Assembly: GCF_900105725.1 (NCBI RefSeq)
Contig: NZ_FNLM01000034.1
Span: forward strand, 62,001-126,000
Origin: Gordonia westfalica
GTDB taxonomy: Bacteria > Actinomycetota > Actinomycetes > Mycobacteriales > Mycobacteriaceae
Direction of reading: 5' to 3'
Length of the DNA stretch: 64,000 nt
The notes below the pieces were generated by a model, which ran no database searches, was not told where the DNA came from, and saw only the letters and a program-made list of their open reading frames with translations. Positions within the stretch are counted from its first letter, which is position 1; every line of letters begins with the position of its first letter. Both the position numbers and the translations under genes were made by a program. Of this stretch, positions 31,199 through 49,179 are shown in pieces.

Positions 31199-31304
31199 GA
31201 CCGAACCACTCCCGACTCTCCGCCACGTGATCCTCACGACTCTCGCGATGTCGTCTGGACCATCGCGGCGTCGAGATGCGTAGACTGGTGCGCGCGTCGC
31301 TACG

Positions 31305-31522
31305 CCACGGGAGAGCGTCACCGAGCAGTCGAGGTGACCGCCGAAGGAGCAATACCTCTCCGTCAAACTCTCAGGCACCCGGACCGTGGTGGTGACGGCG
31401 TCTCTGGAAAGTGACGATCCGTCGTCCGCCCACGGTGAAAGGTCGTCACGCAACGCCGCGTGGCACCGAATCTCTCAGGCGTCCTCCCGGCCTCCGGCCT
31501 CCGGACATGACAGAGGGGAGGG
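31305..31522 (+). ncRNA. Tandem glycine riboswitch upstream of gcvP
   Basis: Two glycine aptamers lie in series. The first (about 31305-31390) has GGGAGAG, CCGCCGAAGGAGCAA and CTCTCAGGCAC; the second (about 31391-31522) has TCTCTGGAAAG, CACCGAATCTCTCAGGC and closes with GACAGAG. These are the conserved cores of the glycine riboswitch. The gene for glycine decarboxylase starts 48 bases later, after GAGAGG (31552-31557), so glycine binding probably switches on its own breakdown. TAGACT (31281-31286) may be the -10 of the promoter. This RNA, not coding sequence, explains the open frame in front of gcvP. Confidence 0.92.
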
Positions 31523-44474: not shown

Positions 44475-45425
44475 TCAGAACGCCGACATCAGGCGATTGA
44501 GCTCGGTGAGCCACGGAATCGCGACCGCGAGGGTCGGCAGTACGAGGATGGCGGCGGCGGTCACGTAGGCGCCGACCGCGATCCAGTGGGCCGGACGGTC
44601 GTCGCGCAGGCGGTGGACGCGAGTGAGCGTGGTGGGTCCGCCGACGGCCATGGCACCGCGGGGGGCGACGGCATCGGCGCAGGCGACGAGTGCGCGTCCG
44701 AGGGTGGTCGGCGCGGTGGCGCGGACGGCCTGATCGTCGGCGAGGGCCTCGACGAGCAGTTCGGCGGCGCCGAGCGCGGAACTGGAGCGGACGAACCGCG
44801 GGAAGGCCTCGTGCAGGGCGATGAAGGCCTCGAGGACGAGATCGTGACGTGCCCGCAGATGAGCCCGTTCGTGGGCGATGACGGCGATGAGCTCGTCGCG
44901 GGTCAGGCGGTGCACGACCCCCTCGCTGACGACGACGCGCTGCCGCAATCCGGGGAGACAGTAGGCGAGCGGCTGCTCGACGTCGATCATCCGGACGTCT
45001 CGTGCGTAGAGGGGATCGTCCGCATCGGTCCGGTCGCAGCGGTCGAGGATGTCGATCAGCTGGCGATGGGCCTTGCGACGGGCGCGGGTGCGGAGTCCGA
45101 CGCGGATGGTCGTGTAGAAGAGGCGGGCGCCGACCAGCAGGGTGAGGATGAAGACTCCCACGCAGGTCAGCCACAGCGGGAGGCCGAGACGATCGATCTC
45201 TCGGAGTGGATGAGTCGTCGGAGTGCCATCGGCCCCGATCACCAGGAGGTTGGCCGCGACCGCCAGGCCGCAGCTGAACGCCGACAACACGGCGGCGAGC
45301 GCGATGGCCTGCCACAGCGTCATCGCCGCGCGTGGGGCTCGGATCGGCCATCGGGCCCGGGACAGTGCCTCGGGTACGGGGCCGGCGAGCACCAAGCTGA
45401 CGATGCCGAAGAGCAAGGCGGTCAT
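44475..45425 (-). CDS. M56-family membrane zinc metallopeptidase (Rv1845c, BlaR1-like)
   Basis: A 316-residue integral membrane protease. Hydrophobic segments occur near the N terminus, at about 38-60, 83-105 and 285-305. The zinc site is HERAH in LIAVIAHERAHLRARHD (near 195), the M56 signature. It lacks the extracellular penicillin-sensor domain of BlaR1, as in mycobacteria. It lies 47 bases downstream of the BlaI repressor gene on the same strand. In M. tuberculosis this pair responds to beta-lactams, with the peptidase presumed to cleave BlaI. Confidence 0.85.
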   Translation of the reverse strand: MTALLFGIVSLVLAGPVPEALSRARWPIRAPRAAMTLWQAIALAAVLSAFSCGLAVAANLLVIGADGTPTTHPLREIDRLGLPLWLTCVGVFILTLLVGARLFYTTIRVGLRTRARRKAHRQLIDILDRCDRTDADDPLYARDVRMIDVEQPLAYCLPGLRQRVVVSEGVVHRLTRDELIAVIAHERAHLRARHDLVLEAFIALHEAFPRFVRSSSALGAAELLVEALADDQAVRATAPTTLGRALVACADAVAPRGAMAVGGPTTLTRVHRLRDDRPAHWIAVGAYVTAAAILVLPTLAVAIPWLTELNRLMSAF

Positions 45426-45472
45426 CCGGTGGGCTTCCTCAAGGGGTGGGCTGATGGGGGTGTGCCGTGAAT

Positions 45473-45871
45473 CTAGCCGGTCTCGTGCGTTCCTCGTGCG
45501 GCTTCGAGTTCATCGAGGGCGTGACGAAGGGCTGCGGCCTCGTCGGCCCCGACCCGTCCGACGAACGACACCAGGGCGGCATGCCGCGATCCCGGCGCGT
45601 CGGCCTCACTGAGTGCGTCGACCATCAGGCTCGCGACCAGGTCTTCACGAGGGTGGGTCGGGACGTACTTGTGTGCACGGTCGTCGCGGATCTGGGTCAC
45701 CAGGTTCTTCTTCGCGAGCCGCTGCAGCACGGTCATCACCGTCGTGTAGGCGAGTGACCGATCCCGCGACAGCTCGGCATGCACCTGCCGGACGGTCTTC
45801 GGTTCGGAGCCGGCCCACAACGTGTCCATCACCGCGCGCTCGAGGTCGCCTAGCCCATTCATCTTTCGCAT
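45473..45871 (-). CDS. blaI: BlaI/MecI-family repressor (Rv1846c-like)
   Basis: A 132-residue penicillinase-repressor-type winged helix protein. LGDLERAVMDTLWAGSEPKT leads to the HTH VRQVHAELSRDRSLAYTTVMTVLQRLAKKNLV (residues about 25-56), with the wing RDDRAHKYVPTHPRED after it; the C-terminal helices give dimerisation. In M. tuberculosis BlaI represses the beta-lactamase gene, the peptidase gene and itself. The ATG at 45871 is preceded by GGAGGCGGAG at good spacing; two later or earlier in-frame codons are weaker. Confidence 0.88.
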   Translation of the reverse strand: MRKMNGLGDLERAVMDTLWAGSEPKTVRQVHAELSRDRSLAYTTVMTVLQRLAKKNLVTQIRDDRAHKYVPTHPREDLVASLMVDALSEADAPGSRHAALVSFVGRVGADEAAALRHALDELEAARGTHETG

Positions 45872-45956
45872 TTTACTGCTCCGCCTCCCGTTGTGTGCCC
45901 GCCGGCTCACGCGTTCATTCCTTTGTTGAGTCCGCGCAGGCGTTTTCGCCTCTGAC

Positions 45957-45974
45957 GTGGTATTACTCCACCAC
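45957..45974. promoter_or_regulatory. Inverted repeat GTGGT-N8-ACCAC
   Basis: GTGGT (45957-45961) and ACCAC (45970-45974) flank an AT-rich centre, directly upstream of the -35 at 45977 and between blaI and the small RNA promoter. It could be a BlaI operator, although it does not match the TACTACA-type site known from other BlaI proteins. Confidence 0.25.
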
Positions 45975-45976
45975 CC

Positions 45977-46007
45977 TTGACACGTTGGTAAGGCTAGCCT
46001 ACATTAA
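45977..46007 (+). promoter_or_regulatory. Consensus promoter overlapped by an IdeR/DtxR-type iron box
   Basis: TTGACA (45977-45982), a 17-base spacer and TACATT (46000-46005) form a strong sigma-A promoter reading right. TAAGGCTAGCCTACATTAA (45989-46007) matches the IdeR/DtxR box TTAGGTTAGSCTAACCTAA at 14 of 19 positions and covers the -10. Iron-loaded IdeR would therefore repress this promoter, and low iron would switch it on. The first transcribed base is expected near 46011. Confidence 0.75.
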
Positions 46008-46010
46008 GTG

Positions 46011-46110
46011 ACACGTCGGACCGCGCGAGAGTCCTGAGGGCTGCAGAGACCCCCGGTCCACGTCACGGAAGGTCCCGCATCTCATCGAGGTGCGGGGCCT
46101 TCGGTGTTTC
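46011..46110 (+). ncRNA. mrsI: Iron-responsive small RNA, MrsI-like
   Basis: The promoter at 45977 leads into about 100 bases with no gene and two strong hairpins. The first pairs ACGTcGGACCG (46013-46023) with CGGTCCACGT (46054-46063) and carries a 30-base head with an inner stem AGTCC-tga-GGGCT (46030-46042). The second pairs AAGGTCCCGCA (46069-46079) with TGCGGGGCCTT (46091-46101), with one G-T pair, and is followed by CGGTGTTT, so it can act as terminator. In M. tuberculosis the IdeR-controlled small RNA MrsI (ncRv11846) comes from the same place, between Rv1846c and Rv1847, and lowers synthesis of non-essential iron proteins. Position, iron box and size all agree; sequence identity was not tested. 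Confidence 0.7.
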
Positions 46111-46193
46111 TCTGGGTAGGGAACGCCGGTCACGGCCTCGGTGTTCCCGGGTCGGTATCGCCCGCCGTGCACAGGCGTGCCACTGTTGAGGCC

Positions 46194-46615
46194 ATGACTG
46201 CGAACAGTGCGGACGAGATCCTCGCGAATTCCTTCGGCAAGGGGCTCGACGGCGTGCTCGGACTCGAGGTCGTCGAAGCCGGACCGGACCGGATCGTCGC
46301 GAAGATGGAGATAACCGAAAGCCATCATCAGCCGTTCGGCATCGTCCACGGAGGCGTCTACTGCGCGGTCGGTGAGAGCGTCGCGAGCATGAGCGGATTC
46401 TTGTGGTTGCAGGAGACGGGTATCGGGGCACCGCGGTCGGGGTCAACAACAACACCGACTTCCTCAAGTCCGTCAGCACCGGCACGGTGACCGCGACATC
46501 GACCCCCATCCACCGCGGCCGGCGTCAGCAGCTGTGGGCCGTCGACATGGTCGATCAGGACGGCACGTTGCTCGCCAAGACCCAGGTGCGGCTCCAGAAC
46601 ATCGAAGCCCGCTGA
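46194..46615 (+). pseudogene. PaaI-family thioesterase (Rv1847-like), frameshifted
   Basis: A hotdog-fold thioesterase in two frames. From the ATG at 46194 it reads to ASMSGFLWLQETG and contains the active-site segment QPFGIVHGGVYCAVGESVAS. The rest, YRGTAVGVNNNTDFLKSVS to VRLQNIEAR, lies in another frame. One missing G in GACGGGTAT (46416-46423) would join them exactly, as the Rv1847 protein has a continuous WLN..VVGVNNNTDF here. The restored protein would be about 140 residues. It is followed by a hairpin terminator and then ureA. It could be a genuine inactivating mutation or an error in a G run. Confidence 0.85.
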
Positions 46616-46644: not shown

Positions 46645-46718
46645 CCGTTCATGGCAGGATGACTCCACTGCAATCGACCACGGCCCCCCGGGTCGGACAT
46701 CTGCGAGGAGTTATCTCG

Positions 46719-47021
46719 GTGCGACTGTCGCCGCATGAACAAGAACGGCTGTTGATCTCGTATGCGGCCGAACTCGCGCGACGGAGGCAGGCCCGCGGGC
46801 TCAGGCTCAACCATCCCGAAGCGGTCGCGCTCATCACCGACCACGTCCTCGAAGGTGCCCGCGACGGTAGGTCGGTGGCCGAACTCATGACGTCGGGCCG
46901 CGAGGTGCTCGGACGCGACGACGTGATGGACGGCGTGCCCGAGATGCTGCACGACGTCCAGGTCGAGGCGACCTTCCCCGACGGCACCAAGCTGGTGACC
47001 GTCCACGACCCGATCGCCTGA
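46719..47021 (+). CDS. ureA: Urease gamma subunit
   Basis: A 100-residue subunit, the exact usual length for Ure[21 protein letters not shown] at the start, [20 protein letters not shown], then [20 protein letters not shown] and [20 protein letters not shown] are family blocks. UreA, UreB and UreC form the (alpha-beta-gamma)3 enzyme that hydrolyses urea to ammonia and carbamate. The GTG at 46719 follows CGAGGAG by 8 bases and is preferred to an ATG twenty codons upstream. It starts the ureABCFGD operon. Confidence 0.93.
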
Positions 47022-47460: not shown

Positions 47461-49179
47461 ATGGCGACACTCGGACGCGACCGTTACGCGCAGCTGTTCG
47501 GCCCGACGACCGGCGACCTGATCCGCCTTGCCGACACCGATCTGCTCATCGAGGTCACCGACGACCTCTCCGGCGGTCCGGGACGCGCCGGCGAGGAAGC
47601 TGTGTTCGGCGGCGGCAAGGTGATCCGCGAGTCGATGGGCCAGAGCCGGGCGACTCGCGCCGACGGCGCTCCCGACACGATCATCACCGGTGTCGTGATC
47701 CTGGACCACTGGGGAATCATCAAGGCGGACCTGGGAATCCGCGACGGACGCATCGTCGCGCTGGGTAAGGCCGGCAACCCCGACACGATGGACGGTATTC
47801 ACCCCGATCTCGTCATCGGACCGTCGACCGAGATCATCGCCGGCAACGGCAAGATCGTCACCCCGGGTGCCATCGACTGCCACGTGCACTTCATCTGCCC
47901 GCAGATCATGGACGAGGCGCTCGGCAACGGCATCACGACGCTCATCGGCGGCGGTACCGGACCGGCCGAGGGCAGCAAGGCCACCACCGTCACGCCCGGC
48001 GCCTGGCACCTCGCGTCGATCCTCGCGGCCACCGACCACTGGCCGGTGAACATCGCACTGCTGGGCAAGGGCAACACGGTCAGCGCCGCCGCGATGCACG
48101 AGCAGATTCGTGCGGGCGCTTCGGGTTTCAAACTGCACGAGGACTGGGGGAGCACCCCCGCCGCGATCGACGCCTGTCTTCGGGTCGCCGACGAGACCGG
48201 GGTGCAGGTCGCACTCCACTCCGACACGCTCAACGAGGCCGGTTTCGTGGAGTCCACGCTCGGCGCGATCGCCGGACGCGGTATCCACGCGTATCACACC
48301 GAGGGGGCCGGCGGCGGCCACGCTCCCGACATCATCACGGTCGCCGCGTACCCCAATGTGCTTCCGTCGTCGACCAATCCGACGCGTCCGCACACCGTGA
48401 ACACCCTCGACGAGCATCTCGACATGCTGATGGTGTGCCATCACCTGAACCCGACGGTGCCGGAGGATCTCGCCTTCGCGGAGAGCCGGATTCGCCCGTC
48501 CACCATCGCCGCCGAGGATCTGCTGCACGACCTCGGTGCGATCTCGATGATCGGTTCGGACTCGCAGGCGATGGGCCGTGTCGGCGAGGTGGTGCTGCGC
48601 ACCTGGCAGACCGCACATGTGATGAAGCGCAAGCGCGGTGCGCTGCCGGGGGACGGCCGCGCCGACAACAACCGCGCCCAGCGATACATCGCCAAGTACA
48701 CGATCTGCCCGGCCGTCGCGCACGGCTTCGACGACGAGATCGGGTCCGTCGAGGTCGGCAAGCTCGCGGACCTCGTCCTGTGGGACCCCGCGTTCTTCGG
48801 TGTCCGGCCGGACCTGGTGATCAAGGGTGGCGCGATCGCCTGGGCGGCGATGGGCGACGCGAACGCGTCGATCCCCACACCGCAGCCGGTCCTCCCGCGC
48901 CCGATGTTCGGTGCCGCACCGAAACTGGCCGCCGCGACGTCGGTGAGCTTCGTCGCGCCCGGCGCGGACCCCGACCTCGCCGAGCGGATCGGCCTCGATC
49001 GCCGTCTCGTCCCGGTCAAGAACACCCGCGGCGTCGGCAAGGCCGACATGGTCAACAACGACGCCTGCCCGACGATCGAGGTCGATCCCGACACCTTCAC
49101 GGTGAAGGTCGACGGCGAGGTGTGGGACGCGGAGCCGGTCTCCGAGCTGCCGATGGCGCAGCGGTACTTCCTGTTCTGA
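47461..49179 (+). CDS. ureC: Urease alpha (catalytic) subunit
   Basis: A 572-residue nickel amidohydrolase, the catalytic subunit. All active-site groups are visible: CHVHF with His141 and His143, carbamylated Lys224 in [16 protein letters not shown] and [13 protein letters not shown] with further His ligands, flap Cys326-His327 in MVCHHL, and metal ligand Asp367 in [10 protein letters not shown]. The start ATG is one base after the ureB stop. The stop codon shares a base with the ureF start (TGATG). Urea hydrolysis would supply nitrogen or buffer acid. Confidence 0.96.

Follow-up and report, generated by a model that had tools for sequence, protein, structure and literature searches.

Does the gap between blaI and a neighbouring thioesterase gene in Gordonia encode an iron-responsive small RNA, and if so, which genes might it control? 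To our knowledge, few trans-acting small RNAs have been worked out in actinobacteria. Excerpts of two reports place one RNA, MrsI, in the blaI-rv1847 gap of M. tuberculosis H37Rv (2096766-2096867, plus strand). By their account, it is ~100 nt long and represses bfrA, hypF and fprA; an IdeR site lies close to where it starts, a terminator is predicted, the seed measures 6-8 nt and the apical loop 7 nt (PMC8628891, PMC11188477). A third source, again in excerpt, gives slightly different coordinates (2096768-2096839) and induction at low iron (PMC7029489). The original prediction, made from the letters of one Gordonia stretch (the window, i.e., the whole 64-kb stretch of DNA analysed here), was that the corresponding gap may hold a homologue of MrsI. 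Among the matches listed in the open-licence literature, titles and abstract openings did not describe this RNA outside mycobacteria, and the main text of a 2012 comparative study, as excerpted, mentions neither Rv1846 nor Rv1847.

The locus and its iron box

Gene matches in the window bore out the predicted setting, with the RNA lying between a divergent blaI and an Rv1847-type thioesterase gene, as for MrsI in M. tuberculosis (Table 1). The guaB-like, gnd-like, blaR-like and blaI genes occupy the minus strand in that order, followed by the RNA and then, on the plus strand, by the thioesterase gene, ureA and more urease genes (guaB and the further urease genes were named from a reading of their translations). 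Among the matches listed, a divergent BlaI gene stands beside the RNA in 74 of the 99 named loci with enough flank. Plus-strand frames of at least 80 aa end at 46011 or start at 46104, and none that looks annotated lies over the RNA. Two minus-strand frames (116 and 148 aa) do cross it, as does one plus-strand frame that is stop-free over 36 codons. Because long frames across non-coding segments are common in GC-rich DNA, and because insertions and deletions distinguish relatives across this segment, we read it as non-coding.

Table 1 Features of the RNA locus, in window coordinates
Feature	Position	Strand	Basis or remark
blaR-like M48/M56-type metallopeptidase gene, predicted target	44475..45425	-	PF01435 above cut-off, PF05569 just below
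CAGCCC at -28 of the blaR-like start	45448..45453	-	complement of RNA 46038-46043
blaI-type repressor gene	45473..45910	-	Pfam PF03965; divergent from the RNA; frame as listed
-35 hexamer TTGACA	45977..45982	+	kept in Gordonia
IdeR/DtxR-type box TAAGGCTAGCCTACATTAA	45989..46007	+	14/19; second overlapping register from 45984
-10 hexamer TACATT	46000..46005	+	inside the IdeR-type box; 17 bases after the -35
Small RNA, putative MrsI orthologue	46011..46109	+	start and end predicted; BLAST, covariance model, fold
First hairpin (outer stem GGACCG/CGGTCC, inner stem GTCCTG/CAG.GAC)	46018..46059	+	covariation
Apical loop AGGGCUG, proposed seed	46037..46043	+	45/46 aligned sequences; complement in predicted target leaders
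Terminator hairpin, then TTTCTC	46064..46106	+	fold; 15/15 pairs with double changes in alignment A3, counted on well-behaved rows
Thioesterase gene (Rv1847-like position)	46194..46615	+	frame interrupted in this assembly; 4HBT match in second part only
ureA, urease gamma subunit	46659..47021	+	PF00547

Several observations concern the wider sequence. A frame change near 46430 interrupts the thioesterase gene (a pseudogene or an assembly error), and a second kshA-like frame on the same contig (position 1448317) stops after 152 aa; together, the two are a hint that this assembly contains frame errors or decaying genes. An Rfam search of the window returned two matches, neither at 45977-46110. 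One is a glycine riboswitch (RF00504, 64.8 bits, 31298-31396, plus strand) directly before a 1009-aa frame that, by translation, reads like a glycine dehydrogenase. The other (RF02514, 5' ureB sRNA, 52.3 bits, 47632-47915, minus strand) is antisense inside a urease alpha-subunit-like frame and possibly reflects nothing but conservation of urease coding sequence.

Both proposed control elements are present. The TTGACA-17-TACATT promoter spans 45977-46005, and the 19-base IdeR/DtxR-type element over its -10 matches at 14 of 19 positions. One promoter-like site was found in 45850-46250, against a mean of 0.1 in shuffles. Scored with what we take to be the IdeR/DtxR consensus, the window contains two 19-mers that reach 13; both score 14 and are overlapping registers of one site, starting at 45984 and 45989. 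After base shuffling, a window contains on average 0.25 19-mers with a score of at least 14. A promoter of the form TTGAC(A/T), 17-18 bases, TACATT-like is kept in 49 of 50 Gordonia loci, and a box score of at least 13 was found in all 50 (versus 0 of 210 control windows), in 38 of 39 loci of other genera (versus 0 of 165) and, among the matches listed, in 111 of 112 named loci with a usable core (versus 2 of 527). Like MrsI, the Gordonia RNA thus has a putative IdeR box at its promoter. Elsewhere on the contig (position 3798340), the leader of a ferritin gene carries IdeR-like elements recognized by eye.

Conservation, fold and loop of the RNA

A BLAST search with 166 bases found a match in all 59 Gordonia genomes. 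We built a covariance model from 45 Gordonia RNAs and searched 397 genomes of the order (E <= 1e-3), of which 97 matched: 67 in the same family and 30, weakly, elsewhere. Thirteen listed genomes of the family had no match. When the Corynebacterium-like genus is set aside, 66 of the 71 family genomes match and five do not, with matches in 10 of 11 sampled genera, so the predicted conservation well beyond Mycobacterium was borne out. The Gordonia-only model also finds the mycobacterial copies at the same locus. In nine Corynebacterium-like genomes searched, the RNA core was not found, and one gave a weak model match without the core. A family-wide covariance model matched 339 of 396 Mycobacterium-like genomes (321 of the 361 of good quality). 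In the other 57, some of them incomplete, the RNA is possibly lost, diverged or missed by the strict filters of the large covariance searches, which can lose weak matches. A core scan of named genomes yielded at least 117 stretches, covering at least Gordonia, Mycobacterium and relatives, Rhodococcus, Rhodococcoides, Prescottella, Nocardia, Williamsia, Lolliginicoccus and one unclassified actinomycete assembly. We rejected the 30 weak matches outside the family (E 1.4e-5 to 9.9e-4) as homologues: of four inspected (L097-L100), three lacked the core and one had only a 5-edit core match, and we take them for terminator-like chance matches.

The original prediction had described about 100 gene-free bases folding into a branched hairpin and a terminator-like hairpin, with an exposed loop at 46024-46053. 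The terminator stands, whereas the first hairpin is an interrupted single stem-loop, and the loop, though present, is confined to 46037-46043. The predicted fold of the entire RNA has an energy of -56 kcal/mol (z -4.64), to which the terminator hairpin contributes most. Taken alone, the first hairpin does not exceed shuffles in stability (z -0.55), so we dropped its stability as evidence, and its support is covariation.

Two alignments were used. Alignment A1 holds 45 of 50 Gordonia loci (four near-identical rows and L041 were left out), and the 45 aligned Gordonia RNAs share sixteen consecutive invariant positions (G27-G42 of the first sequence). Alignment A2 contained terminator-only matches and was discarded. 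Alignment A3 holds 46 of 51 usable loci, including 12 of the 50 Gordonia loci, and omits L066 and L074 (near-identical) as well as L087, L090 and L092 (3' parts odd or cut). Across the 46 family sequences, 96.4% of the cells of the whole structure are paired and 24 of 27 pairs show double changes, a count that none of 500 shuffles reached. Covariation with relatives extends to the first hairpin alone, where 9 of 12 pairs show double changes (shuffles, mean 2.6, 0 of 500 as high; no more than 3 in slid versions). Six sequences, for example, replace UA by CG at the second base pair under the loop, and 11 replace CG by UA in the outer stem. Shuffles keep relatedness; sliding removes it but favours a structure derived from the same sequences. 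The apical loop reads AGGGCUG in 45 of the 46 aligned sequences, the exception being L080 (TGGGCTG). The Gordonia RNA therefore resembles MrsI in its ~100-nt length and intrinsic terminator, both with predicted ends, and in a 7-nt apical loop that may serve as the seed.

Candidate target leaders

Leaders of mycobacterial bfrA offer an independent check on the proposed seed, with the outcome that MrsI would predict. In 7 of 9 mycobacterial bfrA leaders, CAGCCCTCA lies 26-27 bases before the start, and its nine bases are complementary to UGAGGGCUG of the RNA; of the remaining two leaders, one has CAGCCTTCA at the same place and one lacks a site. Homology to MrsI is thus supported by locus, box, length, terminator, loop and the mycobacterial bfrA partner. 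From comparison with mycobacterial copies other than that of H37Rv at the same locus, the Gordonia RNA is most likely an MrsI orthologue under IdeR repression whose seed stayed fixed as its regulon turned over. As a Gordonia target, bfrA was rejected: CAGCCC occurs in only one of five leaders (G012, at -34), and bfrA regulation should not be assumed for this genus. Among 32 RNA-bearing genomes, 18 had a strong bfrA match (E <= 3.6e-63), six a weak ferritin-like match and eight none, so the RNA often exists without bfrA. On comparison, as the original prediction had envisaged, the predicted targets differ between the genera: bfrA in Mycobacterium versus catA and a blaR-like gene in Gordonia.

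CatA (catechol 1,2-dioxygenase) is an Fe(III), non-haem iron enzyme. A seed-complement pattern gave 23 hits in 59 Gordonia genomes, and three orthologous hits were to catechol 1,2-dioxygenase genes (one identified by TIGR02438 and Pfam); we chose catA as the only group found in three genomes. We then took the best match of each of 40 Gordonia genomes (E <= 1e-40), less the partial G054, and let a script set the starts of the resulting 39 leaders from ribosome-site-like motifs. CAGCCC occurs within 65 bases before the start in 36 of the 39 and is the top 6-mer, followed by AAGGAG with 34; the three other leaders keep CAGCC. Without the three discovery genomes, the count is 33 of 36. None of the 29 other arrangements of these letters exceeds a count of 20, reached by AGCCCC, which shares bases with the site. 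Grouped at 80% identity, the leaders form 15 clusters, and in every cluster at least half of them carry CAGCCC; the clusters are not fully independent, as linkage at 70% merges all but one leader. Second catA copies, read by eye and kept outside the count, have CAGCCC upstream in 3 of 7 cases. The duplex of leader and loop has a median of -18.0 kcal/mol versus -13.4 for shuffled leaders, a weak argument on its own because 6% of shuffles reach the real median. Outside Gordonia, CAGCCC lies within 65 bases in 5 of 11 catA leaders from 9 genomes (hits in G246, G125, G386, G414 and G359), and it was found in neither of two mycobacterial catA leaders.

The second candidate neighbours the RNA itself. 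Among 113 starts flanking the RNA, all 26 that bear CAGCCC belong to the blaR-like gene (some counted twice), which is not an iron-protein gene. In a test with leaders obtained from 110 of 182 loci, CAGCCC is the top 6-mer of the Gordonia blaR-like leaders (28 of 34, at -20 to -36; 10 of 15 leader clusters), and it occurs in 6 of the other 74, namely five further Gordonia records and one mycobacterium. A stricter start filter found CAGCCC at 0 of 92 coding-like starts of the window, an undercount that misses the blaR-like site at 45448-45453. In both the catA and the blaR-like Gordonia sets, CAGCCC reaches a frequency of at least 0.82, and the runner-up among 6-mers stands at 0.38. Most Gordonia sites offer a short seed match of 6-7 bp. 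Together, these data make catA and the neighbouring blaR-like gene the best-supported candidate partners of the RNA loop in Gordonia.

Other candidates were set aside. CAGCCC precedes kshA, which encodes an iron-sulphur Rieske oxygenase, in four related Gordonia genomes (G001, G028, G020 and G054) and in G008. With 5 of 30 leaders (from 30 of the 59 genomes), four of them from one group, kshA was rejected as a general Gordonia target; its sites in the four related genomes suggest a clade-specific extra target. Genome-wide searches with 7-mer and 9-mer patterns plus a ribosome site gave no clear excess over a reversed pattern, which differs in composition and is a weak test: 31 hits versus 46 in six Gordonia genomes, the above 23 versus 94 in 59 Gordonia genomes and 24 versus 19 in 20 mycobacteria. 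A large regulon is thus unsupported by these searches. The hits included two orthologous pairs, purF (G009, G040) and a lipoprotein-like gene (G003, G035; 99.7% identical). Judged by translation, some lay before iron-sulphur protein genes, namely purF in two Gordonia genomes, a whiB-like gene and nuoB. In two mycobacteria, CAGCCCTCAGGAGG lies over the ribosome site of a gene whose translation resembles a metallo-beta-lactamase-fold hydrolase.

Proposed mechanism, alternatives and related systems

We consider it probable, on these sequence comparisons, that the locus encodes a trans-acting MrsI orthologue of ~100 nt that is blocked by IdeR, made at low iron and paired through its AGGGCUG loop with CAGCCC-bearing leaders. 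IdeR with iron would occupy the box over the -10 and block transcription, and a drop in iron would allow the RNA to be made. The first hairpin would expose AGGGCUG in its apical loop, and GGGCUG may then pair (over 6-7 bp in most cases and as many as 11 in certain species) with CAGCCC 5' of the target's ribosome-binding site, which would block translation or speed mRNA decay. The conserved partner would be bfrA in Mycobacterium, and catA with the neighbouring blaR-like gene in Gordonia, where repression of catA would save iron. We are evenly divided on a broader proposal, namely that the RNA is ancestral to most of the Mycobacteriaceae (sensu GTDB), that its 7-base loop stayed frozen as the regulon turned over and that in Gordonia an RNA does the work done by the protein RipA in Corynebacterium. 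On this proposal, the catA leader of one clade would offer its site within a hairpin loop, and the first contact may be between the two loops.

The alternative that survives best, though we think it unlikely, is that the RNA is iron-controlled and that CAGCCC in the catA and blaR-like leaders is another factor's site or part of leader structure. In the catA leader of the window genome (GTGGCAGCCCCACG), CAGCCC lies at -35 and CAGCC forms the loop of a small 7-bp hairpin; by eye, the G026 leader keeps this hairpin loop on a changed stem. The blaR gene has no obvious iron link, and the RNA loop is nearly invariant, with no co-variation between loop and site. A site for some other factor would nevertheless have to coincide with the loop complement as the top 6-mer in two unrelated Gordonia leader families, and that complement also occurs in most mycobacterial bfrA leaders.

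More doubtful is a 5' leader attenuator of the thioesterase gene, transcribed from 46011, in which the terminator hairpin would halt RNA polymerase or let it pass, with the loop as a ligand or protein site. The RNA and the thioesterase gene share a strand; among the matches listed, 92 of the 93 named loci with sufficient flank have a thioesterase part downstream, and the terminator hairpin ends ~88 bases before the thioesterase start. An attenuator would leave the conserved loop complement in unlinked leaders (bfrA, catA) unaccounted for, a single structure was seen within the consensus fold, and the mycobacterial counterpart is, in the excerpts cited, an independent trans-acting transcript of ~100 nt (PMC8628891, PMC11188477). 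It is very improbable that the box, despite its place in a divergent intergenic region, serves blaI-blaR or the thioesterase gene with the RNA as an incidental feature, since it overlaps the -10 of a near-consensus promoter aimed at the RNA, its centre commonly lies 33-67 bases upstream of the loop core, and the RNA is, by eye, more conserved than its flanks.

If the RNA is the MrsI orthologue that we favour, aromatic degradation through catA in Gordonia, a bioremediation genus, would be limited by iron through an RNA. With the blaR-like gene as a target, the blaI-blaR sensor pair would be coupled to iron starvation, and such a neighbouring target could help keep the RNA at its locus. The seed can be traced across ten genera and hundreds of genomes; published work on mycobacteria anchors it, and its candidate target sites are clear and differ. 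This allows one to ask how targets come and go while the seed stays fixed.

The closest known system is MrsI itself (ncRv11846; M. tuberculosis, M. smegmatis), which the Gordonia RNA resembles in its gap, length, IdeR-type site, predicted terminator, short putative seed and 7-nt apical loop; the loop of the mycobacterial copies fits the conserved bfrA leader site. It differs in that four of five Gordonia bfrA leaders lack the site, which is instead borne by catA and blaR-like leaders. RyhB and PrrF, which are under Fur control and depend on Hfq, are iron-repressed RNAs that silence iron-using proteins. IsrR, as described in an excerpted report, is another (PMC9410917), and the Gordonia RNA would follow the same iron-sparing logic if it is repressed by iron as proposed.

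In Corynebacterium, a protein appears to do comparable work. The C. glutamicum gene cg2636 (catA1) presumably encodes catechol 1,2-dioxygenase. A table excerpted from one report lists it, with the function label protocatechuate 3,4-dioxygenase beta subunit, among the genes regulated by RipA, together with aconitase, succinate dehydrogenase and catalase (PMC2807442), and a further excerpt places RipA under DtxR control and has it repress iron-protein genes at low iron (PMC3022926). By these sources, iron sparing in a neighbouring genus already counts a catA among its targets, reached by another mechanism. RipA resembles the proposed Gordonia system in being DtxR-controlled, in repressing iron-protein genes and in having catA1 on its list; it differs in being an AraC-type repressor protein that acts on DNA, not homologous to the RNA; the nine Corynebacterium-like genomes searched yielded no RNA core. 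The comparison allows one to ask whether an RNA and a transcription factor share the iron-sparing role in neighbouring genera.
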